Origin: an uncultured Ulvibacter sp.
GTDB lineage: Bacteria; Bacteroidota; Bacteroidia; Flavobacteriales; Flavobacteriaceae
Direction of reading: 5' to 3'
Assembly: GCA_938041335.1 (NCBI GenBank)
Contig: CALIAF010000047.1
Location: 1-36,179 of the forward strand
DNA: 36,179 nt
The translations under genes and the position numbers were made by a program. This document shows, one piece after another, positions 4,984-29,662 of this stretch. Under the pieces are notes generated by a model. That model was not told the DNA's origin and ran no database searches. It saw only the letters and a list, made by a program, of their open reading frames with translations. The stretch's first letter is position 1; every line of letters starts with the position of its first letter.

Positions 4984-6270
4984 ATGAACACGATCAGCAA
5001 ACGTAACTATCATCCACTTGTGTCTATATTTTACTCTAAAGGTATACTCAGCAAAGAGCAAGTACAGCAAATTCCAGAAAGAACCAGACAACACTGGAAC
5101 AAGAATAAAGAAAAGCCCTATGATTTTGACCATTGGATTAGACCTTTTACAGAGCATATTGAAGATGTTCAAAAGATATACCAACGTACCCAACTTAAAA
5201 AAACAATACAGTTTGTCATTAAAATAAGTGATGGATATCAACAAATACTAAATCAGATTAATGGTAATAAAAAAATAGTACAACAAAATGCCTCACATAT
5301 TGTAAAAGCCATTGATCAGATTATTTCCCTTTCAAGCATTAAAACAAAACGTGCTTGCAGGTTTTATGGTGTATCTAGTGACTGGTACTACCGTGAGAAG
5401 CGAAAAGTAAACTGTTCTCTAAATATTTTTAACAAGTGCTTTAAACAGCATCCTAATCAATTAACATTTGATGAAACAGTTGCCATTGAAAGACTTGTAA
5501 AAGATCCTAAGCATTTTGGCAAAACAAAGGTGACACTCTATTATCACGCTTTGCGAAATGAGTTAGTTTCTTGTGGGAAATCTACTTTCAGTAAATATGC
5601 CAAAGCATTAGGATATAAAAAACCTAAGAAACCAAAAATTCCTCCGAGAATTGGAGTGCGTGCTAGTCGTGTTTTTGAGTGGTTACATGTTGATATAACA
5701 TTAGTGCCTACCCTTGAAGGAGGTATGCAGAAAGTAGCTTTTGTAAAAGACAACTTTTCTAAAGCCATTTTGCACTGGGCGTCTGTTTCTGAAAAAGCAG
5801 ATAGTCGTTTTATCACAAAACTATTTAAAGAAACCTTTAACAAATATGACCTAAACAACGTTAAAAGGCCTATTAATATCCTAACAGATGGAGGTCCTGA
5901 AAATAAGGGAGCGTTTACGACTTGGGTTAATCATTTTAACGCACCACAGATAGTGACCAAAATTACTGCTCGCACTGTAGAATTTCCTTTATCTAATTCT
6001 ATGGCGGAGAGTACTCATAGTATTTATAAAACAGAATTTTTAAAGGGACAGGTATCAAGAGTCGTTAAAAATCATTTAGATAGTCTAGAGCGTTTTGTTA
6101 CCTATTATAATTATGAACGGTTTCCTGCAGATTTATGCGGTTTACATCCTATGGAAGTTATTGCTGGAAAAATACCTAATAAAGAGTACTTTAAAAATCA
6201 AATTGCTGAAGCCAAACTTAATAGAGTTGCTACTAATAAAGCGTTTAACAAGTGTGCTTTTATGGGATAA
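4984..6270 (+). mobile_element. IS3/rve-type DDE transposase, single full-length ORF
   Basis: A 428-residue transposase with an integrase-core (rve) fold. Residues 118-140 (KTKRACRFYGVSSDWYY) match the OrfB-type helix-turn-helix of IS3-like elements, and the N-terminal 110 residues take the place of OrfA, so no programmed frameshift is needed. The catalytic triad is D237 (HVDIT), D302 (LTDGGPEN) and E342 (SNSMAES). The last spacing is slightly longer than the usual DD35E. The only end symmetry found is AACCTACT at 4975-4982 against AGTAGGTT at 6270-6277, just outside the ORF, which is too short to prove insertion-sequence ends. No target-site duplication was recognised. The ORF appears intact and may be an active element or a solo transposase. 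Confidence 0.8.
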
Positions 6271-14722: not shown

Positions 14723-15997
14723 TTAAAAAAGGTCGTCGCTGGTTATACTTTGTGTTCTTTTGCTGTAGTTTACAGATCGTTTTACGAAAAAATCACCGTG
14801 TTTGGTTCCAATAATCTCGTCATCAAACCATTCGGTTTCTCTTACGAGGGTTTCATCAACCTCAAAAACTTTTTCTACACCTATACTTTCAAGTGACTTG
14901 TTAAAACGGTTTTTAAGAAACTGGTTAATCACGTTTTTAGGTAAAAAGTCTATTTCTCCTTCTTCAAAAATCCAATCTACTAAATCTACTTCTGCTTCAA
15001 AAGCCGCTTTACAGAGCTGCTGTATATTTTCATGATATTCTGGCGTAAACCACTCTGGATGCTCTTCTTTAAGAATCAAGATAAGTTCTATTCCAAAATC
15101 ACCATGTATTTGTTCTTCTTTTGAGGTTGCTTCAACCACATTAGAAATACCTTTCAGCATATTTTTGTGTTTGTTGAAAGCCATTATTATTAAAAACTGC
15201 GAGAATAATGATACGTGTTCTATAAATAGAGAGAACAATAACACCGCTTCTGCATATTCTTCATTATCATCACTTTTAGAGTTGCGTAATGCAGACTCTA
15301 AATATTGCACCCGTTTCATGATAACCGGTTTCTTTTTAAGCGCTTTAAATTCTTTGTTTAGTCCTAAAATTTCTAGAAGGTGTGAGTATGCATCTGCATG
15401 ACGTACTTCACTTTCTGCAAAGGTTGAACCTACGGCTCCTATTTCTGGTTTTGGCATTCTTTGGTGTAAATCACCCCAGAAATTTTTTACAGCTACTTCA
15501 ATTTGAGAAATAGCAAGCATCGTGTTTTTTATGGCACTACGCTCTACGTCATTTAATCTTGTTTTAAAATCTTGTATGTCACTTGTAAAATTAAATTCTG
15601 TATGAATCCAATACGAATGACGAATGGCAGGAACATATTCATATAACTGCGGGTACTCATAAGGTTTTAAACTTATACGTCTCTCAAAAATATCTGTTTT
15701 GCGTTCTTGTGCTCTTTTGTTTCTATATAATATGTACGCCTTTGCAACCTCTGGAAAACCACCTTCCATTAGCTTTGTTTCTACAATATCCTGTACTTGT
15801 TCTATAGTTGGTACATAGCCTACATTTTGCTCCTTTCTGAAGAGCAAAACTTTATAAACTTCAATAGCCACATTCTGGGCGTCATCTTCAGAGCCTGCAT
15901 TGTTTAAACTCATTGCTTTAACAACAGCAGCGGTTATTTTGTCTAAGTGAAAAGATTTTGTAGTAAAATCTCTCTTGATGATGTGTGTAATTTCCAT
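14723..15997 (-). CDS. nrdB: Ribonucleoside-diphosphate reductase beta subunit with N-terminal ATP-cone
   Basis: A 424-residue radical-generating subunit. Residues 1-100 form an ATP-cone (KRDFTTKSFHLDKI near the start, YILYRNKRAQER near 88-99), normally found on NrdA, followed by the ferritin-like core. Metal ligands visible are E197-x-x-H200, E260 and E295-x-x-H298, with E167 as a possible first ligand. Y204 occupies the radical-tyrosine position. Allosteric control through an ATP-cone on NrdB has been described for a flavobacterium (Leeuwenhoekiella), where dATP drives NrdB self-association and the cofactor is dimanganese. By homology the same may hold here; metal type cannot be read from the sequence. 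It is first in the operon. Confidence 0.95.
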   Translation of the reverse strand: MEITHIIKRDFTTKSFHLDKITAAVVKAMSLNNAGSEDDAQNVAIEVYKVLLFRKEQNVGYVPTIEQVQDIVETKLMEGGFPEVAKAYILYRNKRAQERKTDIFERRISLKPYEYPQLYEYVPAIRHSYWIHTEFNFTSDIQDFKTRLNDVERSAIKNTMLAISQIEVAVKNFWGDLHQRMPKPEIGAVGSTFAESEVRHADAYSHLLEILGLNKEFKALKKKPVIMKRVQYLESALRNSKSDDNEEYAEAVLLFSLFIEHVSLFSQFLIIMAFNKHKNMLKGISNVVEATSKEEQIHGDFGIELILILKEEHPEWFTPEYHENIQQLCKAAFEAEVDLVDWIFEEGEIDFLPKNVINQFLKNRFNKSLESIGVEKVFEVDETLVRETEWFDDEIIGTKHGDFFVKRSVNYSKRTQSITSDDLF

Positions 15998-19805: not shown

Positions 19806-22052
19806 TTACTCACGCTTATAGCTTGTGTAGTATTCTTCCATAAGATTCATTACGCCGGTAGCAAGATCTTTAGTTTCTAACAAAATGTTGAAATATAAAG
19901 AAGTGTTTTTTGGACTCGATTCTTCTGTACGAGTGCGTTCTATTTGTTTATGTATCTTATCAGAAATTTGAGTAATTATTTCTTCTCTACGCGACAATAC
20001 GTAGCTAATACGCTCAAATTTACCACTGTCAAATACGTCAGCTATTTCAGTGAGAATAGCGCTCAATTTATCATCTATCTCTTGTAAATCTTTAATTTGG
20101 CTGAAGCGTAATTTTTTATGATTATTATTTACGTGCTTGTAACTCTTTTTAGCAATAAACTCTAAAGACTGTGCCATATCTGTTAGATGGGCAAGAATAG
20201 TGATGTAGAAGTTACTACCTCTAACACTTGTCTCATCTAAGTTTTTAATGAGATAGAAAATGTTATCTCTTAAGTCTTCTACTTCAGATTCAAGTTTTGC
20301 TACTCCTTTTTTACTCTTTTTAAGTTTCCCGTTGTCTTCTCTTGCAAGTCCTTTAAGTACGTCTGTATATATTTGGTTTGTTCTAGAAACAACGTTAGAT
20401 ATATTACTTGCACTTTCTGTAATAATACCTTGTACCGTACTACTCTCAGATTTCACAAGACTTTTTGGGTCTACCTTAGTATTACTTTTCTTTTTATGAG
20501 AAAGGTAATTACGTACCAACAATACTGCGGTTAAAAGCAATAATATAGGGATCATTACTTCTTTATTCCAGTTAATCAAGAATACTACTGTACCTGCAGC
20601 GATTAAGGCCCCAAATGCTGTAAAAAACCATCCTCCAATAACGTTTAGCACACCAGCCACTCTATATACGGCACTCTCTCTTCCCCAAGCTCTATCTGCA
20701 AGTGATGTACCCATAGCGACCATAAAAGTAACATAAGTTGTAGAAAGCGGTAACTTCATAGAAGTTGCAATAGAAATTAATACTCCAGCAACCATTAAGT
20801 TTACAGAAGCTCTAATCATATCAAATGCGGGTGCATCAATACTTTGATCTTTAGTTAGTGCTATTGCATCAGGTTTTTCGAAGCTAGCATTGATTCTTTC
20901 TTGTGTAGCTTTAGGAAGAACCCCACTAAAAGCGTTTGACAACCATGATGTTCCTCTTACAATCCCTCTGGAGAGCATGTTAGGTTGAAACTTCTCATGT
21001 GTATCGTTTTGACGAGAAAGACTTAACTCTGTCTCTGCAACAGTTTTTGCTTTTTTAGAAAACCATAAAGTGGCAACCATAATACCACCTGCAATGAACA
21101 ATAAAAATGGTTCTGCTGGCATTTTCTTGTCTAGTATTTCCATCGTGAATTCTGTTGCTGCTACGCCAGATCCAGACCACGCCTCATAAGAATGATACGC
21201 TGCCATAGGTACCCCGATAAAGTTTACCAAGTCATTACCAGAGAATGCTAAGGCAAGACCAAATGTTCCAACTGCGATAACCACAAGTAGAATACTCTTT
21301 TTCGTTACTTTCTGGAACAGATATGAGAATATTGTGAAAACCACAAAACTTACTGCCATTACTAAATACTCATTTCCTTCTAAATACCCTTTTAAGTCTT
21401 TGTAAAATGGAGATCCTTTAAGACCTTTCATGAATATAAAATACATAATAGCAGCCAAGGCAACACCGCCGAAGATTGCACCAAAATGCTTTATTTTTTT
21501 CTCAAAATGGAAGGTGAATATTCTTCTAGAAATCCATTGTACAAGTGCACCCACACTAAAGGCAATCACTACAGATAATAAAATACCGCTAATAATTTCT
21601 AGTGCTTTGTCTTTATTAATGTATTCTCCAAGATCTGAAATACTCTGGCCGTCATTTGCGCCAATTTTAATTAACGAAATAACAATAGCGGCTCCTAATA
21701 AATTAAAAACAATAGAAACGGTTGTTGAGGTGGGTAGACCTAGGGTATTAAAGAAATCTAACAGTAAGATGTCTGTGATCATTACTGCGAGAAAAATCAT
21801 CATGATCTCATCAAACGTAAACATGGCGGGGACAAAAATACCTTTCCGTGCAACCTCCATCATACCACTCGAGTAAACGGCACCCACAAAAATACCAAGA
21901 CTGGCTACGATCATTATCGTTCTCATTGAAATGGCTTTAGAACCTATTGCCGAGTTTAAGAAGTTAATAGCATCATTACTTACCCCTACTACAATATCAA
22001 GTACGGCAAGAATGACTAAGGCCACTAACATTAATAAATAAATATTATCCAT
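19806..22052 (-). CDS. PiT-family inorganic phosphate transporter fused to a PhoU-like (DUF47) domain
   Basis: A 748-residue protein. Residues 1-520 hold the PiT permease with its two inverted signature repeats: GVSNDAINFLNSAIGSKAI (23-41) with GLPTSTT (105-111), and KLPLSTTYVTF with GTSLADRA near 430-450. Residues about 535-748 form a soluble helical PhoU/DUF47-like domain (LKGLAREDNGKLKKSKKGV through the C-terminus). In many bacteria a separate DUF47 protein is encoded next to PiT; here it is fused. It imports phosphate across the inner membrane. It is followed by a terminator (19752-19785), and a promoter with two 11-bp-spaced TGTTA repeats (22070-22114) precedes it. Confidence 0.93.
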   Translation of the reverse strand: MDNIYLLMLVALVILAVLDIVVGVSNDAINFLNSAIGSKAISMRTIMIVASLGIFVGAVYSSGMMEVARKGIFVPAMFTFDEIMMIFLAVMITDILLLDFFNTLGLPTSTTVSIVFNLLGAAIVISLIKIGANDGQSISDLGEYINKDKALEIISGILLSVVIAFSVGALVQWISRRIFTFHFEKKIKHFGAIFGGVALAAIMYFIFMKGLKGSPFYKDLKGYLEGNEYLVMAVSFVVFTIFSYLFQKVTKKSILLVVIAVGTFGLALAFSGNDLVNFIGVPMAAYHSYEAWSGSGVAATEFTMEILDKKMPAEPFLLFIAGGIMVATLWFSKKAKTVAETELSLSRQNDTHEKFQPNMLSRGIVRGTSWLSNAFSGVLPKATQERINASFEKPDAIALTKDQSIDAPAFDMIRASVNLMVAGVLISIATSMKLPLSTTYVTFMVAMGTSLADRAWGRESAVYRVAGVLNVIGGWFFTAFGALIAAGTVVFLINWNKEVMIPILLLLTAVLLVRNYLSHKKKSNTKVDPKSLVKSESSTVQGIITESASNISNVVSRTNQIYTDVLKGLAREDNGKLKKSKKGVAKLESEVEDLRDNIFYLIKNLDETSVRGSNFYITILAHLTDMAQSLEFIAKKSYKHVNNNHKKLRFSQIKDLQEIDDKLSAILTEIADVFDSGKFERISYVLSRREEIITQISDKIHKQIERTRTEESSPKNTSLYFNILLETKDLATGVMNLMEEYYTSYKRE

Positions 22053-22069
22053 AATTTAAATTTTGTTTG

Positions 22070-22114
22070 GCAAAGGTCATATAAATGACTGAACCTTTTG
22101 TTACCAAATTGTTA
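22070..22114 (-). promoter_or_regulatory. PiT promoter with PhoB-like 11-bp repeats
   Basis: On the minus strand TAACA occurs at 22114-22110 and 22103-22099, exactly 11 bp apart, and CTTTGC (22075-22070) starts 28 bp after the second one begins. GACCTTTG fits the Bacteroidota -7 consensus TAnnTTTG at five of six positions, and TAACA overlaps the -33 region. The same arrangement precedes the porin and TonB-receptor genes, so a shared activator is likely. Confidence 0.55.
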
Positions 22115-22125
22115 TTAATTATTCT

Positions 22126-23325
22126 TTAAAAGTGTACGTCAAGTTGTAAGCGATAGATCCAATTATTACCGTCTCCATTAATAGTCTCATAAGTTAAATC
22201 TGTTTGTAATTTAAGCTTATGTCCAACAAAATACTTAGAAGCTCCTACAGTGTATTGGTCTGTTATACGACCTCCAATGATGTCCTCTAAGGTAATGTTA
22301 CTATATCTTCCAGATAATTCTAAGTTAGTAGGTAATAAATAACCAGCTTGCAAGTTAACGGAGTTTCCAACATTTACATTTCCAGCTTCTGTGCCGTCGG
22401 TATTCAGTGCAAATATATGTTCTGCATCACGGTTTGCGAATTCTCCTTGGAAAGAAAAACCTTTGTATTTAAACATCGCATCAACAAATAGCGTGTTAAT
22501 GTCTGTTTCAAATAATGAACCGTCGTCTATAAATAAATAACTCCCTAAGTTACTTCTTGAACGTACTGCGTTATTATTATGATCATAGGTAGCAGAAAGC
22601 ATAAGTTTTGGGGTTTCTTCGCGTTTTAAATCACTTGAAGAATAATCTCCTTTACTTGTAAATTCGCCAAAAGGTAATAACTCAATCCTTCCAGTATATT
22701 GAAGCCCTCCTTGATTTCCTTCTGTCACATTTCTTCCTTCTCCTTGAGAAACTGCTATTTTCTCTCTTATCACAAAGTTTTCGCCTATTTTATCTTTATG
22801 GCGTAATTGGATACCAGCATCACGGTCAATATTAAAACGAGAGTTCAATATGGAACGATCTACAAACTGCAAATTTCCAGAAGAGATCACACGCTCTATG
22901 TTACCAGGTAATTTAGTTTGACCCGCCCATAACTCCCAATCTGGAGCAAAATTCCACATGACCACTGCATCAAGAATATATCTTGGGGCATCTCGCGTAA
23001 ATTCGCTACCACCAGAAATATCTCTATTACTCAAACCTAGCTCAAATTTATATTTTAATTTTGGGCTAAATGCAAATCCATTAAACTTAAAACGAGCTCT
23101 ACGAACTAAAAAGTTTTGTTCTATTTCGGCCGAGTTAGGATTATTTGCAGCGAGTGAAGAAGTGGATAAGAATTGCATTCGTGTTGCAAATTTCATGCTC
23201 CATGAGCTATCTTTTGCGATAACATTAAAAATTCCTTTTCCAAATTTAGTATCAACAACTTGTTGAGCGTTTGCAGCGTAGCAAAAAGAGAATAATGCTA
23301 CAATTAGTAGGTAACGTAATTTCAT
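22126..23325 (-). CDS. Phosphate-selective-porin-like outer-membrane beta-barrel protein
   Basis: A 399-residue protein from the ATG at 23325. An upstream in-frame ATG at 23367 would add 14 residues before a clear signal peptide (MKLRYLLIVALFSFCYAANA), so the shorter start is chosen. After cleavage it is rich in alternating beta strands, with LVRRARFKFNGFAFSPKLKYKFELG near the start and a terminal YRLQLDVHF, which ends in the aromatic residue of barrel proteins. The pattern fits the OprO/OprP porin family. It lies directly upstream of the PiT gene, so outer- and inner-membrane phosphate transport are adjacent. The leader holds a promoter inside inverted repeats and a hairpin terminator. Confidence 0.88.
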   Translation of the reverse strand: MKLRYLLIVALFSFCYAANAQQVVDTKFGKGIFNVIAKDSSWSMKFATRMQFLSTSSLAANNPNSAEIEQNFLVRRARFKFNGFAFSPKLKYKFELGLSNRDISGGSEFTRDAPRYILDAVVMWNFAPDWELWAGQTKLPGNIERVISSGNLQFVDRSILNSRFNIDRDAGIQLRHKDKIGENFVIREKIAVSQGEGRNVTEGNQGGLQYTGRIELLPFGEFTSKGDYSSSDLKREETPKLMLSATYDHNNNAVRSRSNLGSYLFIDDGSLFETDINTLFVDAMFKYKGFSFQGEFANRDAEHIFALNTDGTEAGNVNVGNSVNLQAGYLLPTNLELSGRYSNITLEDIIGGRITDQYTVGASKYFVGHKLKLQTDLTYETINGDGNNWIYRLQLDVHF

Positions 23326-23329
23326 TGTA

Positions 23330-23353
23330 AAAATCAATTTTAGTTTTTGTCGA
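23330..23353. repeat. Left arm of inverted repeat flanking the porin promoter
   Basis: The 24-bp segment just before the porin ATG is an inverted copy of 23464-23485, identical except for a 2-base TT insertion. Key parts are AAAATCAATT and AGTTTTTGTCGA on the plus strand. The arms enclose 110 bp that hold the porin promoter and a minus-strand terminator, the layout of an invertible promoter. Confidence 0.75.
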
Positions 23354-23355
23354 GG

Positions 23356-23389
23356 GCAAAGGTGCATATTAATCCTAGTATGAATGTTA
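23356..23389 (-). promoter_or_regulatory. Putative porin promoter
   Basis: On the minus strand TAACA at 23389-23385 is followed by CTTTGC at 23361-23356 (CACCTTTG fits TAnnTTTG at five of six positions). The distance equals that in the PiT promoter and is within one base of that in the TonB-receptor promoter. Only one TAACA unit is convincing here. Confidence 0.45.
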
Positions 23390-23419
23390 ACATAACTTTA
23401 ATTATTTACCCTATTTAAT

Positions 23420-23448
23420 GAAAAAAGGCTGCCCAAAAAGACAGCCTT
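23420..23448 (-). terminator. Minus-strand intrinsic terminator inside the porin leader region
   Basis: AAGGCTG (23425-23431) and CAGCCTT (23442-23448) form a 7-bp stem around a 10-base loop, followed on the minus strand by TTTTTTCATT. It lies upstream of the porin promoter and points at the porin, so it would stop read-through from the right or act as an attenuator. Confidence 0.7.
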
Positions 23449-23463
23449 AGCACCTTACAATAG

Positions 23464-23485
23464 TCGACAAAAACTAATTGATTTT
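23464..23485. repeat. Right arm of inverted repeat flanking the porin promoter
   Basis: Plus-strand TCGACAAAAACT followed by AATTGATTTT is the reverse complement of 23330-23353 apart from two missing bases. See the left arm. No recombinase gene adjoins it in this window. Confidence 0.75.
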
Positions 23486-23623
23486 GTGCTGTCTTATAGA
23501 AAGACAAGCAAAGAAAAGCAAATACTACTTGTTGAGTGTTATTTGAATATTATCAAACAACGCTTGTAATCTGAGAAAATAGTTACATACAAAATACTGG
23601 TAATTAACACCTTATAACCTCAA

Positions 23624-23683
23624 TGTTAAGTTAATGTTATGTAAATGTTGTGTAGGTGTAAAATTTGCATTAATTTTATGTTA
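23624..23683. promoter_or_regulatory. 11-bp-periodic TGTTA array between the porin and MORN genes
   Basis: Plus-strand pentamers at exact 11-bp steps: TGTTA 23624, TGTTA 23635, TGTTG 23646, TGTAA 23657, CATTA 23668 (poor) and TGTTA 23679. The array runs to within 23 bp of the ATG at 23706. A possible -7 for that gene is TTTGC at 23664-23668, or TTG 23648 with TAATTTTA 23671-23678. The same period and consensus precede the TonB-receptor gene, so this is a likely OmpR/PhoB-type operator. Confidence 0.6.
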
Positions 23684-23705
23684 TTAAATAAATACCCCTA
23701 TAGTT

Positions 23706-24086
23706 ATGAAAAAATTAATGATTGCTTTTGTTTTAGTTTTAAGTGCAAGTATGATGTATGGGCAAGCTTGTTCTAAGACATGTAGTAAAAAGAACTCTTA
23801 TGTTAAAAATGGTGACATTATAGAGGCCATTATTTATCATGATAATGGTGCTGTTGCTCAAACAGGAACATATTCCCTAGATAATGAATTAGAAGGAGAA
23901 TGGATAAGTTATGATACTAAAGGGAATAAAACTGCCTTGGCAAATTATAGCAATGGAAAAAAAGTGGGGACTTGGTTATTTTATCAAGGAGATGAAATGA
24001 AAGAAGTAACCTATACAGATACTAGAATTGCAGAAGTAAAGACATACGCAATACAGGATACAAGAGTTGTGTCTAATAGGCCTTAA
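23706..24086 (+). CDS. Small secreted MORN-like protein
   Basis: A 126-residue exported protein: signal peptide to about residue 19 (ending MMYGQA), a short Cys segment (CSKTCSKK, 21-28), and three MORN/YwqK-like strands (DNGAVAQTGTY, EGEWISYDTKGN, KVGTWLFYQGDEM). Databases often call this fold a YwqK-family antitoxin, but there is no toxin gene beside it and that name should not be trusted. It sits between phosphate-transport genes, and an 11-bp-periodic TGTTA array overlaps its promoter, so it may belong to the same regulon. It ends in a shared bidirectional terminator at 24104-24134. Confidence 0.75.
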   Translation: MKKLMIAFVLVLSASMMYGQACSKTCSKKNSYVKNGDIIEAIIYHDNGAVAQTGTYSLDNELEGEWISYDTKGNKTALANYSNGKKVGTWLFYQGDEMKEVTYTDTRIAEVKTYAIQDTRVVSNRP

Positions 24087-24103
24087 AGCTAAAATTGATA
24101 TAT

Positions 24104-24134
24104 AAAAAAGGAGACCAATTTGGTCTCCTTTTTT
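24104..24134. terminator. Bidirectional intrinsic terminator
   Basis: AAAAAAGGAGACCA and TGGTCTCCTTTTTT form a 14-bp stem around ATT, with A and T tracts usable from either side. It serves the MORN gene (plus) and the lipoprotein gene ending at 24154 (minus). Confidence 0.92.
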
Positions 24135-24153
24135 TATGGGCTATACTCAAATA

Positions 24154-25332
24154 TTAGTTACGCGTCCATCCAGATCCCCAAGTATTGAAATCTGTTCCAG
24201 TAGCATTACCGTCGCCAATGATGAAATCTGATTCATCAAAAGTAAATTCTGTGTCATTTTTTAGTTTCGTAGTAACATCTATAAAAGTTACATCCGTCAC
24301 AGAAAGATCGCCGTCAATTACACCTTGTCCAGTAGGGCTATCTCCCATATCACCATCAAGATCAAAACCTTCATCAAACCCTTGTAAAAGGATATTTGTA
24401 AATATACCTTGCGTACCAACTCTCAATCTAATTGCCTCTGGCGTTGAAGAAGCAGTAGAGCCTCTACCAATAATAGTAACATTGCTTACGGTTGGTTTTG
24501 AGAAGTATAGAGGGTTTGAATTATTCCCTATATCAGAGTTAAATCCATCTGCTTCAATACCTTTATCATGCTCAATACCGTGAAGAATGTAAACGTTATT
24601 TAACGTTCCAGTATATCCTTCTGTCCAATCTACAGAGTCGTCTTGCGCTCCAGATACAGCAACAAAACTTGCGTTTACTGTGCCTCCAAAAAACTCAACT
24701 CCATCATCTTTACCTTCAAAAGCTTGAATGTATGCTACCGTTGTTCCATTCCCAACACCGTAAAAAGAAAACCCGTTGTTTTCACTAGAAGCATCTGCAG
24801 CACCTCCAGAGTACTCCACACGTAAATAGCGTAAAACACCAGAGTCATCGTCTGATATTGAACCTCCATAAGGCAATCCACCTATTTCACTTGTAGAGGT
24901 TGCATCGCCACCAGCTACAGAATTAATTGGCGCACGACCTAATAAAATTAAACCTCCCCAGTCTCCTGCGTTAGGTGTAGTATTACTAGAGGTAAGTACC
25001 ACTGGATTAGTAGAGGTACCTTCGGCATTAATTTTACCACCTTGCTTCACTGCGATGTAAACATCTGCTCCAGGAGTAGCTCTTACCACTGTACCAGGGT
25101 TCATTGTTAATGTAAAGCCTTCTTCTACTATTAATGCAGAAGTTAAATCGTACGTGGTATCGGCATCTAACTCTAAGTCTGCACTGAGTGTTCCACCTAT
25201 TTCGTTTTCTATTTCTGCACCTGCACCTGCACCGTTGATATTGATTACGATATCTGATGTATCATCAGCTTCGCAACTCGCAAAAAGCAAAGCCATTAGA
25301 GCGAATCCTAGAAATAATGTATTCTTTTTCAT
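24154..25332 (-). CDS. Beta-helix surface lipoprotein paired with a TonB-dependent receptor
   Basis: A 392-residue protein from the ATG at 25332; an earlier ATG at 25359 would add nine residues before the signal peptide. MKKNTLFLGFALMALLFASC is a lipoprotein signal with Cys20 as acyl site. After an Asp/Gly-rich spacer the chain has repeating short strands (LTMNPGTVVRATPGADVYIAV, GKINAEGTSTNPVVLTS, GDWGGLILLGRAPIN), the look of a right-handed parallel beta-helix. Such proteins commonly accompany a SusC-like TonB receptor in Bacteroidota, though not SusD-type. It starts 34 bp after the receptor's stop and shares its promoter. A ligand role in phosphate or organophosphate uptake is inferred from context only. 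Confidence 0.8.
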   Translation of the reverse strand: MKKNTLFLGFALMALLFASCEADDTSDIVININGAGAGAEIENEIGGTLSADLELDADTTYDLTSALIVEEGFTLTMNPGTVVRATPGADVYIAVKQGGKINAEGTSTNPVVLTSSNTTPNAGDWGGLILLGRAPINSVAGGDATSTSEIGGLPYGGSISDDDSGVLRYLRVEYSGGAADASSENNGFSFYGVGNGTTVAYIQAFEGKDDGVEFFGGTVNASFVAVSGAQDDSVDWTEGYTGTLNNVYILHGIEHDKGIEADGFNSDIGNNSNPLYFSKPTVSNVTIIGRGSTASSTPEAIRLRVGTQGIFTNILLQGFDEGFDLDGDMGDSPTGQGVIDGDLSVTDVTFIDVTTKLKNDTEFTFDESDFIIGDGNATGTDFNTWGSGWTRN

Positions 25333-25366
25333 AATTATTAATTTTAGTTTTTGTTTCAATTTTAGT

Positions 25367-28144
25367 TTAAAAGTTATATTTCAATTGTAATGCGAGGTTA
25401 ATTCCTCTTTTGTATTTTGATAAAGTAATGTCTTCTACATCTTCTTCTCGTACACGCTCTATATCTGGGTTTAATAGATTTTTTGCGCTTGCGTTAAGTT
25501 CTAAATGATTTCCTAGCTTGTTCTTCCAAACAAAATCAAGTGTGCCTACGCCTTTTTCAACGATGTTACCTAGTTGACCAGATCCTATAGCATCTATACG
25601 GTCGCTGAAATAAGAATACACCACATTAAACATAGGTTTGTAGGTATTGAAAACTGGAGTATAGTTTATATCTGCATTTATAAGTAGGGGAGAAGCTCCT
25701 TGAAGCATTTCGCTACCTCTATTAAATGTGGTTGTAAAAAGTCCTGTAGCGTTTCTTAAATCTTGTTTGGTGTACATATAAGTAGCATTAATACCTGCAC
25801 TTAGTGTTGTGTTTTCATCTGCACCTATCATTAGGTTTTTTCTTAGTTCTACTTCAAGACCTAAAACTTCGGCTTTATCTCCTGTTCTAAAATAGCGCTG
25901 TGTTCCCGTAGCGTCATTTGCGATTACTTTATTAACAGGGTCATTAATTTGTTTTGCAAATGCTGCAATAGAAAAAATTTCGTTTTTCCCGAAGAAAGAC
26001 TCATACTTTAGGTCAAGATTGTATACTTGTGAAAAAGATGGATCGTTTAATAAATCTGGATTACCGCCCACACGTTGCGTAACATCCTCATAAACAAAAG
26101 GAGTAATCTCTTTAAATTCTGGAACAGAAATCGTTTTACTAAAACCAAATCTTAAGTTGTCATCTTCTGTTATTGCAAACTTTATATTCAAAGCAGGTAA
26201 AAGGAAATTTTCTTTAGCGTCTCTAAAACCTGGGTCTGTATCCGGAAGGTTAATTACATCATATTCAATTTGCTGCTCATAATTTTCAAAACGAAGCCCG
26301 GGGATGATTGTAAATTTTTCAGAAGCTTGAAGCTCAGCATCTGCATAGCCAGAAAAGATGTTTAAAATTCCTTTATAGGTGTTTTCTGGCAGCCCTGGTA
26401 AATTTGTACTCGTAAGACCTAAAGAAGGGTCTATTGCTCTAAAGACACTTGTATTATAAACAGTGCCTATGTTTTGAACATCAAAAATCGCGTCAAAATT
26501 AGTTACATCTGTAATAGGCGTGTTTGGCTGTATAAAGTCATACCCATATCTAATGTTCTCAAAACTACGCTCCTTTGATCTTGCATTATAGCCAAAGTTT
26601 AGTACAGTTTTTTCTGAAACCTCATAGTTAAAACCAATCACACCATTATATTCGGTATCAAGAATACTCTGAAAATATCGCTGGTTATCAAATACAATAT
26701 TGTTAAAGAAAGAAGGGTTTGTCGCGGGATCATTGTCTAGTGCAAGATCATAGCGTTCTAAACTAATACGCTTTCTATCTGGTTGTCTCGCATTCACCCT
26801 ATTATAACCTATACCCCAGTCTAGCGTTATTTTTTCTGATATTTTACTGGTTCCTAATAGCTGATTTACATAAATAAGATCTTGATCAAACTGAATATTT
26901 TGCTGAAAAAAACCTTTATCTGTATCTAAAATTGCATTCTGATTTCTACCTAATCCATCAGTTCCGTAAAAGCCTACTTCGTCGTTTGCGCTATTAATAA
27001 ATAAGCTATTAAAACTAAATTTGTGATCTGAAGATTGACGATATACTATGTTTGCCATAGCAGTGGTAGTAGCATTTGTTTTATAAACTTCTGTAGCAGA
27101 GAACCCTTTATTTTCTGTGGTTGTATAGTCTATAGCAACACCGTCTCTGTACTCAAAGTCTGTATTAAAAGAAGCTGTTGCAAAAAGACTTACTTTGCTG
27201 TCATCTTTAAAATCTATGCTTGTCCCGCCAGATATGGCACCATTATAAGCAATAGGAGTGCCAGCGTTAACAGGATCTACACCGTGAGAAAGTATCACAG
27301 CAAATGGATTGTTATCATAACGGTTGTAGAAACCAAAATTACCAGTACCCTCACTTTTCACAAAATCCTGTTCTATAGCGCGTGTATTAATACCAGCCCC
27401 TAATTCTATGTCAACAAAATTTTTCCCTGAATGTTCTTTAGAAGAAATATTCACATTACCTGCAGCAAAGTCACCATAAAAATTAGCAGCATATGTTTTG
27501 CTTACAGATACATTCTGGATAATGTCACTCGAGAATAAATTAAGATCAATATTTTTCTTTTCAATATCATTTGAAGGTAGCGAAAGACCATTATAAGTAG
27601 TATTAAGGTAGCGGTCACCTAATCCTCTTACATACACATTAGAGCCACCTTCTTGTTTTGAGATGCCAGAAATTTTTGTTACCGCACCTGCCGCATCACT
27701 TACCCCTTTTCTAGAAAGCTCATCTGCACCGATGCTTTGTTTCATAGTCACCGCTTTCTTTTGTTCTAATAAAAGCGCAACTTCACTATCTCTTCTTGTG
27801 GTTGTTCTTATTACAACTTCGTCAAGTGCCGCTGCACTCGCGCCCATAGGCATATTTAATATTGTTGCTTTATTCGCTTCAACAGTAACTTCAATTTCTG
27901 TTGTTTTATACCCTACGTAGCTAAACTGAATAATATATGAACCCGCTGCAAGATTTTCAATTATATATAAACCGTCAAAATCTGAGGTTACTCCTTTATC
28001 AGTTCCTTTAATAATCACATTTGCAAAAGGCAAGGGCTCATCGTTATAATCTTTGTCTGTAAGTTTTCCAACAATGGAACCCGATTCTTGGGCAAACAAA
28101 GAGGCACTAAAAACTACTAGAAGTATGGTAAAAATTTGTTTCAT
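25367..28144 (-). CDS. TonB-dependent outer-membrane receptor with CarboxypepD-reg-like domain
   Basis: A 925-residue protein: signal peptide (to about residue 18), a carboxypeptidase-regulatory-like beta-sandwich (about 22-105, SIVGKLTDKDYNDEPLPFA), a plug domain (about 112-235, with GGSNVYVRGLGDRYLNTTY), and a beta-barrel ending in LALQLKYNF with the C-terminal Phe needed for barrel assembly. The domain order is that of SusC-type receptors, but the partner gene downstream is a beta-helix lipoprotein, not SusD. Uptake would be TonB/ExbBD-powered. The promoter carries a six-unit 11-bp array (28185-28244) like those of the PiT and porin region, so phosphate limitation is the likely inducer. 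The substrate is not known. Confidence 0.9.
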   Translation of the reverse strand: MKQIFTILLVVFSASLFAQESGSIVGKLTDKDYNDEPLPFANVIIKGTDKGVTSDFDGLYIIENLAAGSYIIQFSYVGYKTTEIEVTVEANKATILNMPMGASAAALDEVVIRTTTRRDSEVALLLEQKKAVTMKQSIGADELSRKGVSDAAGAVTKISGISKQEGGSNVYVRGLGDRYLNTTYNGLSLPSNDIEKKNIDLNLFSSDIIQNVSVSKTYAANFYGDFAAGNVNISSKEHSGKNFVDIELGAGINTRAIEQDFVKSEGTGNFGFYNRYDNNPFAVILSHGVDPVNAGTPIAYNGAISGGTSIDFKDDSKVSLFATASFNTDFEYRDGVAIDYTTTENKGFSATEVYKTNATTTAMANIVYRQSSDHKFSFNSLFINSANDEVGFYGTDGLGRNQNAILDTDKGFFQQNIQFDQDLIYVNQLLGTSKISEKITLDWGIGYNRVNARQPDRKRISLERYDLALDNDPATNPSFFNNIVFDNQRYFQSILDTEYNGVIGFNYEVSEKTVLNFGYNARSKERSFENIRYGYDFIQPNTPITDVTNFDAIFDVQNIGTVYNTSVFRAIDPSLGLTSTNLPGLPENTYKGILNIFSGYADAELQASEKFTIIPGLRFENYEQQIEYDVINLPDTDPGFRDAKENFLLPALNIKFAITEDDNLRFGFSKTISVPEFKEITPFVYEDVTQRVGGNPDLLNDPSFSQVYNLDLKYESFFGKNEIFSIAAFAKQINDPVNKVIANDATGTQRYFRTGDKAEVLGLEVELRKNLMIGADENTTLSAGINATYMYTKQDLRNATGLFTTTFNRGSEMLQGASPLLINADINYTPVFNTYKPMFNVVYSYFSDRIDAIGSGQLGNIVEKGVGTLDFVWKNKLGNHLELNASAKNLLNPDIERVREEDVEDITLSKYKRGINLALQLKYNF

Positions 28145-28165
28145 TTTTTCTTTTAAATTTCTACT

Positions 28166-28244
28166 GCAAAGATGGTATGCCTTGTGTAAAGTTCTTGTTA
28201 ACTCAAAATTATGCTTGTGTCATGAGTGTGTTATTTTAATGTTA
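28166..28244 (-). promoter_or_regulatory. TonB-receptor promoter with six-unit 11-bp TGTnA array
   Basis: Plus-strand pentamers at exact 11-bp steps: TGTAA 28185, TGTTA 28196, AATTA 28207, TGTCA 28218, TGTTA 28229 and TGTTA 28240. GCAAAG at 28166-28171 gives a minus-strand CTTTGC (CATCTTTG fits TAnnTTTG at five of six positions), 30 bp from the unit at 28196. TGTCA with 11-bp spacing is the PhoB half-site pattern, but it is inverted relative to the receptor gene. It also lies upstream of dgt (start 28319). Confidence 0.65.
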
Positions 28245-28318
28245 ACTTCTTCTAAAATTTTATGACGTAAAAAATTAATCGCAAATAGTTATCTTGCCAA
28301 GACTAAAATAGATGACAC

Positions 28319-29662
28319 ATGATGCAATGGGAACAGCTCCTTTCATTAAGAAAACAAGGAGTTACAAACAAGCGATTACGTATAGAAGAAGATGAAACCC
28401 GCCTGGGGTTTGATGTAGATTATGATCGTATCATTTTTTCTTCGGCCTTTAGAAGCTTACAAGACAAAACACAAGTGATTCCGCTGTCAAAGACTTCATT
28501 TGTGCATACCAGACTTACGCATAGTTTAGAGGTTTCTGTGGTAGGGCGATCTCTAGGTAGAACCGTTGGGAAAGCCATCTTAGATGTACACCCTTCCTTA
28601 CATAAAGTGCACGGATATACCTTTAATGACTTTGGTGCCATTGTGGCCGCTGCATCATTAGCGCATGATATAGGTAATCCACCCTTTGGTCATAGTGGTG
28701 AAAAAGCCATAGGCGATTATTTTTTACACGGAAATGGGAAGCGTTTCAAAACGGCACTGACAGATAAAGAGTACCAAGATCTCATCACTTTTGAAGGAAA
28801 TGCCAACGGCTTTAAAATACTTAGCGAAAGCAAAAATGGAGTTGAAGGTGGACTAAGATTAACGTATGCAACATTAGGCGCATTTACCAAATACCCGAAA
28901 GAATCATTGCCTAAAAAACCTACGAGTCATATTGCGGATAAAAAGTATGGAGTTTTTCAAGGTGATACTACTTTTTTCACTGAAGTCGCAGATGAACTTG
29001 GTTTGACAGAAAGAGGTGCAGCTGGAGATTTAAGTTATAACCGCCATCCTTTAGCTTTTCTAGTAGAGGCGGCAGATGACATCTGTTACACGATCATCGA
29101 CTTTGAAGACGGCATTAACCTAGGTCTAATAGAAGAAGAATTTGCCCTAGAATATCTAATAGCATTAGTAAAAAACACTATAGACACTAAAAAGTATCAA
29201 GGGCTAACAAACGTTTCAGATAGATTGGCTTATTTACGTTCGCTGGCTATTGGTGTTCTTATTCAAGAAGCGGCACAAATTTTTATTAAGAATGAAAAAG
29301 CAATTTTAGACGGTTCGTTTACCCAAGCATTGCTAGACAAGAGTTCTTATAAAGCGCAGATAGACGATATCATTAAAATTTCGGTAGAGAAAGTATATAA
29401 AAGCACAGAAGTAATTGAAAAAGAAATAGCAGGTTATTCTATTCTTGAAACACTTTTAGAAACCTTTACTATTGCCTTAGAAAATTATCATGATAATACT
29501 GGATTAAGACATTATGATAGCTTAGTATTGGCACATTTTGATGACGCAATAAAAGAACCACAGACGGTATATCAATATCTAATGGGGTGTTGCGCTTATG
29601 TTTCTGGTCTTACAGATGGGAATGCCTTACAGATATTTCAGAAAATAAAAGGAAATCTCTAA
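28319..29662 (+). CDS. dgt: Deoxyguanosinetriphosphate triphosphohydrolase (dGTPase)
   Basis: A 447-residue HD-domain dNTP triphosphohydrolase that splits dNTPs to deoxynucleoside and triphosphate. The early signature RLRIEEDETRLGFDVDYDRI matches Dgt. HD-domain metal ligands appear as H68 (RLTHSLEVS) and the H116-D117 pair (SLAHDIGNPPFGHSGE). Two ATGs are adjacent (28319 and 28322); the second, MQWEQLL, is equally likely. It is divergent from the TonB-receptor gene with a 174-bp gap that carries the 11-bp array. With nrdAB and dCMP deaminase in this window it bears on dNTP balance, but it is a separate transcript. Confidence 0.92.
   Translation: MMQWEQLLSLRKQGVTNKRLRIEEDETRLGFDVDYDRIIFSSAFRSLQDKTQVIPLSKTSFVHTRLTHSLEVSVVGRSLGRTVGKAILDVHPSLHKVHGYTFNDFGAIVAAASLAHDIGNPPFGHSGEKAIGDYFLHGNGKRFKTALTDKEYQDLITFEGNANGFKILSESKNGVEGGLRLTYATLGAFTKYPKESLPKKPTSHIADKKYGVFQGDTTFFTEVADELGLTERGAAGDLSYNRHPLAFLVEAADDICYTIIDFEDGINLGLIEEEFALEYLIALVKNTIDTKKYQGLTNVSDRLAYLRSLAIGVLIQEAAQIFIKNEKAILDGSFTQALLDKSSYKAQIDDIIKISVEKVYKSTEVIEKEIAGYSILETLLETFTIALENYHDNTGLRHYDSLVLAHFDDAIKEPQTVYQYLMGCCAYVSGLTDGNALQIFQKIKGNL

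Follow-up and report, generated by a model that had tools for sequence, protein, structure and literature searches.

Genes and promoters of the phosphate-uptake locus

The window, the whole stretch of DNA that was analysed (36,179 nucleotides of contig CALIAF010000047.1), belongs to the 3.25 Mb, 63-contig assembly of an uncultured Ulvibacter sp. (GCA_938041335.1). On its minus strand it encodes a PiT phosphate permease (19806–22052; Pfam PHO4, 105.6 bits against a cut-off of 33.7), a phosphate-selective porin (22126–23325, with its ATG read in the sequence; Pfam Porin_O_P, 43.2 bits against a cut-off of 20.9), and a TonB-dependent receptor (25367–28144; Pfam TonB_dep_Rec_b-barrel and Plug) followed downstream by a putative lipoprotein (24154–25332, ATG at 25332–25330). 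The porin probably starts at 23325 because the longer open reading frame start at 23367 precedes the TTTG of the promoter. The closest named porin among the best 80 of 565 stretches is that of a Dokdonia MAG, at 79% identity. The lipoprotein gave no match in Pfam or NCBIfam, and a match to it was found in 30 of the 31 genomes searched. Lipoproteins of this family in two related loci (L117 and L122) show box-like repeats 5' of a TTTG by eye.

The sequence-only reading had placed TGTTA 29, 29 and 30 bp from GCAAAG at PiT, the porin and the receptor, with an exact 11-bp period at PiT (two repeats) and at the receptor (six positions); reading the promoters directly bore out both the spacing and the period. 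On the minus strand, the PiT promoter (22071–22117) contains TAACA at 22114–22110 and 22103–22099, followed after 24 nt by TTTG at 22074–22071. The porin promoter (23357–23402), delineated with the aligned promoters of 36 loci, has a TAACA at 23389–23385 separated by the same 24 nt from TTTG at 23360–23357, and 11 bp beyond it stands a degenerate repeat (CTAGG). The receptor promoter (28167–28247) carries TAACA, TAACA, TGACA, TAATT, TAACA and TTACA, starting at 28244, 28233, 28222, 28211, 28200 and 28189, so that three of the six repeats are exact while two are one base off and one is weak; its TTTG (28170–28167) follows the last TAACA by 25 nt, one base longer than at the other two. The proposed match of CTTTGC to the Bacteroidota -7 element holds for the TTTG half, whereas the rest of the TAnnTTTG sigma-A box is not kept in the window promoters (GACCTTTG, CACCTTTG, CATCTTTG).

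The three-promoter account was incomplete in that it missed a fourth promoter and the small RNA that this promoter is predicted to drive, both of which lie in the interval that separates the porin from a divergent MORN-like gene (23706–24086, plus strand). The fourth promoter (23509–23555, minus strand) has TAATA at 23552 and TAACA at 23541, and again 24 nt before TTTG (23512–23509). A strong triple 11-bp repeat (23615–23653) also stands between this RNA and the MORN-like gene, and the minus strand has a TTTG at neither 24 nor 13 nt from it. Read on the plus strand, this repeat appears as TGTTA facing the MORN-like gene. A similar divergent gene stands beside the RNA in another locus of the same genus (L326) and in L327, a locus of the MAG G414, whose porin is elsewhere.

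A conserved operator in front of PiT and porin genes

The promoter signal is far above chance. In 120 genomes of the family, a strict PiT-type pattern occurred at 52 places against one in the reversed control, and a strict porin-type pattern at 32 places against none, the window's own porin not being among them. Of 60 strict boxes that were opened (30 per type), 28 stand before PiT and 28 before the porin, as recognized from motifs in the next protein. Two of the other four (L302 and L323, both porin-type) precede a second porin-like protein, that of L302 being Porin_O_P when tested, and two, of the PiT type, precede other genes. Aligned on TTTG, 20 PiT promoters read ATAACA.TTaggTAACA..TTTGC and 36 porin promoters read TAAt...AAACATTaA.TTAAcATt..TTTGC, in the same 11-bp register; the porin loci were sampled from 60 family genomes, 41 of which had a porin match, with 30 loci opened (own included). 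One PiT promoter (L044) is displaced by one base from the register, and two of 19 PiT upstream regions (L048 and L061) had no such box by eye.

A matrix trained on 19 PiT promoters of other species, the own PiT site being left out, returned the locus in the window. Among 72,312 window positions, the triple repeat at 23615 ranked first, PiT second, the distal pair of TonB receptor repeats third, the small-RNA promoter sixth (score 10.8) and the porin 25th, and ranks 1–4 and 6 all fall within the porin/PiT/small-RNA/receptor locus. The receptor repeats taken at the 24-nt register score -35 (rank 63,739), their actual spacing being 25. The same matrix was slid along those small-RNA promoters, 54 of 102, in which a rule based on the 5' hairpin located a TTTG; the remaining 48 were dropped. 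The mean score was 2.9 at the exact register, with side peaks near -2.4 at ±11 and all other shifts below -10, against -21.3 ± 1.1 for shuffles.

The genome of the window itself is less informative. A loose PiT-type pattern (up to two mismatches) is not specific there, with 116 matches against 77 in the reversed control; the exact pattern occurs at PiT only, and the small-RNA promoter matches it with one mismatch. A whole-genome matrix scan had been named by the sequence-only reading as a check on its regulon, together with a search for phoA and phoB. Scanning with a combined box model gave 36 matches at E <= 10, of which PiT came first, the 23615 array second, the porin tenth and the receptor 18th; the rest were weak, the small-RNA promoter was absent and 13 of the 30 matches opened fall inside genes, so the scan found no wider enrichment. 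Judged from the conservation of its sites, this is a genuine operator associated with the phosphate permease and the porin.

The Pho reading and the candidate regulator

The sequence-only reading proposed one activator for porin, permease and receptor. For porin and permease the shared operator is well supported, because its register is conserved across genera and 56 of the 60 strict boxes stand before these two genes; the receptor, however, is one base off register. The Pho label given to this regulon is plausible rather than demonstrated. The own alkaline phosphatase, recognized by Pfam, does have a box in exact register, although its score of 9.7 is moderate: three other sites score higher when four own stretches (68,824 positions) are scanned. 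In the case of phoB, the outcome was negative: the best own PhoB-like regulator reaches 205.6 bits where 296.2 are required (TIGR02154) and 195.9 where 270 are required (NF053854). Its gene (L182, 5282–5986, minus strand) shares contig C36 with that of a histidine kinase, and both proteins fall under the cut-offs of the PhoB/PhoR models. A secreted protein beside this gene was considered as a nuclease and rejected, since Pfam recognized only DUF5689 and a sorting tail.

The regulator that we infer is a member of the OmpR family of response regulators, with the flavobacterial Pho regulator as the likeliest candidate; a Pho regulon would plausibly fit both the operator and the alkaline phosphatase box, short of proof. 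In the excerpts of a Riemerella study, PhoP binds a motif with the core TTTAACA, close to the 11-bp repeat found here (PMC9603813). The same excerpts liken that motif to the one of ArcA and stress aerotolerance and membrane genes, which, together with an own regulator under the PhoB cut-off, would favour an operator that serves not phosphate but a different system of the OmpR family, namely redox control of the ArcA type or envelope control. We regard this as unlikely, though it is the most probable of the alternatives: 56 of the 60 strict boxes that were opened across genomes of the family sit before PiT or the phosphate porin, and the excerpts also describe Riemerella PhoPR itself as upregulated under phosphate starvation (PMC9603813).

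A predicted, conserved small RNA upstream of the porin

In relatives, a conserved block 5' of the porin box consists of 11-bp repeats, TTTG, a short hairpin, TTAGTTTTTGTCGAC and a terminator. In the window, this block corresponds to a predicted antisense small RNA of 84 nt (23421–23504, minus strand) with a 5' hairpin, a central hairpin bearing the loop UUUGUC, and a terminator (23448–23425), at which the RNA ends just upstream of the porin promoter. A model of the element (R1), built from 27 sequences, matches the window at 23421–23529 with E 5.5e-10, the own sequence being inside the training set. The fold of 23420–23504 has a predicted energy of -26.3 kcal/mol (z -4.45, equalled by 0 of 200 shuffles).

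Relatives carry predicted RNAs of roughly 100 nt, the median length over 102 sequences being 102 nt. The two arms of the central hairpin, which were tested separately after the MAFFT/RNAalifold alignment had missed that hairpin, covary across the 102 sequences (-6.00 against -4.35, 0 of 5000 permutations), and the terminator stem shows compensatory changes. The longest closed ATG open reading frame in any of the 102 is 21 aa and the median is 0. With structure, promoter, terminator and little coding potential, the element has the features expected of a base-pairing small RNA. Rfam 15 had nothing matching in 23421–23504 and gave seven weak matches outside the small RNA in 22000–28400, all below the gathering score, and no flavobacterial porin RNA was seen in the literature searched.

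Predicted pairing with the porin leader

The small RNA contains a region, TCAATTAGTTTTTGTCG (23465–23481, minus strand), that is complementary to the leader of the porin mRNA, CGACAAAAACTAAAATTGATTTTTACA (23326–23352, minus strand), with a predicted duplex energy of -23.2 kcal/mol for the own pair. The +1 of this leader was set from a TTTG ending at -5, as the excerpts of a Flavobacterium psychrophilum study place the sigma-A box TAnnTTTG at -12 to -5 (PMC9723704); by this rule, the porin mRNA is predicted to start at, or one base before, GACAAAAACTAA. On this prediction, the small RNA is the complement of the first ~13 nt of the mRNA. The leader is short: the G of GAC stands a median of 20 nt from the ATG.

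We collected 107 RNA–leader pairs (27 from training, 9 from the order search, 70 from named loci, and L265), which left 102 distinct pairs after removal of exact duplicates, although near-duplicates may remain. All 102 reach -16 kcal/mol or lower. The mean duplex energy is -21.8 kcal/mol for cognate partners, -18.6 for swapped partners (sd 0.2; 0 of 5000 permutations, a test that is inflated by relatedness and for which the tree count below is only a rough correction), and -6.8 for shuffled leaders. Over 13 positions, 1279 of the 1326 pair cells are kept. Positions 1–8 are nearly invariant; positions 4 and 10–13 hold 33 cells in which both partners have changed. Of the 47 broken cells, 23 are at position 13.

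On a porin tree of 202 branches, which includes the L085 protein, perhaps not a porin, 15 events (counted as branch by position) alter both sides, and all 15 keep the pair; by our arithmetic from the tree counts, about 2.4 double events would be expected by coincidence if changes were independent. The combinations of TTTTAGTC with GACTAAAA (L062, L085) and of AATGG with TCATT (L245, L263) are examples. One-sided changes, 61 on the mRNA side and 16 on the RNA side, were counted against the pairing. The sequences therefore contain compensatory changes between the predicted RNA and its putative target.

Distribution among relatives

Of the 30 porin loci opened, the own one among them, 27 contain the seed and three (L035, L054 and L061) lack it. 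Among 80 named loci, which are the best of 565 stretches and hence biased to close relatives, the element adjoins the porin in 70 and there is no match to the RNA at all in nine. In Lutibacter oceani (L265), the element lies about 3.4 kb upstream of the porin with three opposite-strand open reading frames between them. The RNA is not essential for use of the porin, since about a tenth of the loci opened lack it.

Searching 296 genomes of the order with R1 under strict filters, we found 10 with the RNA at E <= 1.4e-5, a number that we count against our reading. These are the own copy and nine matches outside the training set. Each of the nine lies just 5' of a gene whose leader matches, and by eye eight of the nine genes read as the porin. 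In L085, from another family, the RNA precedes an outer-membrane-like protein with no Porin_O_P match, and seed and leader both carry a T/A exchange. Seven weaker rows of the same search (E 6e-5 to 1e-3) were dismissed since they resemble stray terminators, and L330 and L331 were dismissed as small-RNA copies for that reason too.

Nine genomes chosen for having no RNA near the porin were searched whole. Eight had no credible RNA anywhere, and one, the MAG G414, has a copy on contig C240, about 130 nt from the contig end and with no porin beside it, which makes it less sure; its porin leader is complementary to this RNA apart from one G-U pair. Both L265 and, with less certainty, G414 combine an unlinked RNA copy with a complementary porin leader. 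Two of the eight (L238 and L242) keep a perfect leader though no credible RNA was found, and this counts against our reading.

A predicted brake on the induced porin

Our computational observations, namely the boxes and their register, the RNA element conserved among relatives and the compensatory changes, lead us to favour, with some reservation, a model in which one Pho-type operator drives the phosphate-uptake genes together with an antisense RNA that limits porin translation. The regulator, presumably of the OmpR family, would bind the 11-bp repeats (TTAACATT), whose register relative to the -7 element is fixed, and would activate transcription of PiT, the phosphate porin, the TonB receptor–lipoprotein pair and the ~84-nt small RNA. 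The loop UUUGUC of the RNA may then pair at the predicted 5' end of the porin mRNA (GACAAAAACUAAU), from which the duplex could zip on to the start codon ~20 nt away and block ribosome entry. Repression of translation is expected because the loop meets the mRNA 5' end and the pairing runs toward the start codon. Since RNA and porin share the operator in the same register, an incoherent feed-forward loop is likely, in which phosphate shortage would induce the porin and its dedicated brake together.

Several findings count against this circuit. Folding predictions leave the 13-nt seed 57% unpaired on average, and none of the 102 RNAs reaches 80%; the candidate regulator lies under the PhoB cut-offs. 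The 5'-hairpin rule placed a TTTG in only 54 of the 102 small-RNA promoters. In the excerpts of a study on Flavobacterium johnsoniae, moreover, the porin OprP is not induced by Pi depletion, while the receptor and lipoprotein of the PhoBR operon are strongly so (PMC8115612).

The same RNA and the same pairing might instead protect the mRNA 5' end or help translation, which would make the RNA a co-activator. Pairing that starts at the predicted +1 could act as a 5'-end shield, and transcripts that seem to share an operator fit such a role; with so short a leader, however, the duplex overlaps the area covered by a starting ribosome, and we hold this version to be rather unlikely. We find it more doubtful still that the RNA has several targets in trans, including lipoproteins, with the porin leader as one of many. 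ACAAAAACTAA is found 5' of the window lipoprotein and of its paralogue on contig C9, and pairing with these leaders against shuffles gave p 0.07 for the window and 0.007 for the paralogue, but the own genome has 16 matches to ACAAAAACTAA against 16 in the reversed control. The lipoprotein test covered 39 of 44 loci (two own and 36 valid relatives, L123 being excluded for a wrong start), and only one of the 36 valid relative leaders (L120) fell below 0.05, so lipoproteins were rejected as conserved trans targets and the porin is, on these sequence comparisons, the only conserved target found. Finally, that there is no trans-acting RNA, the two arms being a hairpin within a read-through transcript or a DNA inverted repeat, would agree with the distance of 98–234 nt from seed to porin TTTG in all but one of 102 pairs, but is very improbable given the terminator between the arms with its compensatory stem changes, the arms separated by kilobases in L265, the RNA and porin on different contigs in G414 (a weaker case), and the common G-U pairs of the RNA–leader duplexes, which indicate RNA rather than DNA.

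As to the wider identity of the brake RNA, we lean slightly toward a Pho-regulon RNA of marine Flavobacteriaceae that is dedicated to a single mRNA, that of the phosphate porin, and pairs with its first transcribed nucleotides, shares its operator, has co-evolved with it base by base and was retargeted to another outer-membrane-like protein in the distant L085 lineage.

Relation to known systems

Small RNAs of Bacteroidota with a known partner are few, and Hfq is not known from this phylum. The element described here would offer a partner fixed by covariation, a target of ~13 nt at the mRNA end and a predicted inducing condition. MicF, MicC and other Hfq-dependent RNAs of enterobacteria repress porins, and the present RNA resembles MicF and MicC in pairing near a porin mRNA start; it differs in its phylum, in the one conserved target found, in pairing from the predicted first nucleotide and in having its operator in common with the target. 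The Pho box of E. coli is made of 11-bp direct repeats at the -35 region, bound by the OmpR-type regulator PhoB in front of phosphate genes. The repeats described here are alike in period, predicted type of regulator and genes, whereas they read TAACA on the coding strand (the reverse orientation), number up to six and are combined with a Bacteroidota -7 box. Cis-encoded antisense RNAs of Bacteroides polysaccharide loci, the subject of Cao et al. 2016, whose title speaks of repression, reportedly lie antisense within the target locus. Like them, the present RNA is a Bacteroidota small RNA beside outer-membrane uptake genes; unlike them, it would be a separate gene, upstream and co-directional, that has an operator of its own, and it is unlinked in L265.

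Among flavobacterial systems, the excerpts on Riemerella PhoP describe a response regulator with a TTTAACA core and EMSA that included a TonB receptor promoter, but a global regulon with an ArcA-like motif for which they do not describe an 11-bp spacing (PMC9603813). The F. johnsoniae cluster is similar in having OprP, a TonB receptor and a lipoprotein beside phoBR, the latter two Pi-induced, and differs in its uninduced OprP; the excerpts describe no small RNA or Pho box (PMC8115612). The Rfp RNAs of F. psychrophilum are independent flavobacterial small RNAs, of which Rfp18 acts on protease genes, while the excerpts describe no phosphate or porin RNA among them (PMC9723704).

If the proposed circuit is true, it would show how marine flavobacteria hold back a phosphate channel of the outer membrane at the same time as they induce it, such that a cell may switch on the phosphate gate and the brake on that gate together. 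The boxes also supply a usable operator definition for the phosphate genes of flavobacteria.

Elsewhere in the window, two further open reading frames were noted by eye. The one at 4984–6270 (plus strand) resembles a transposase or integrase, and the one at 14723–15997 (minus strand) appears to encode a ribonucleotide reductase small subunit with an N-terminal ATP-cone-like domain, an arrangement known in Bacteroidota.
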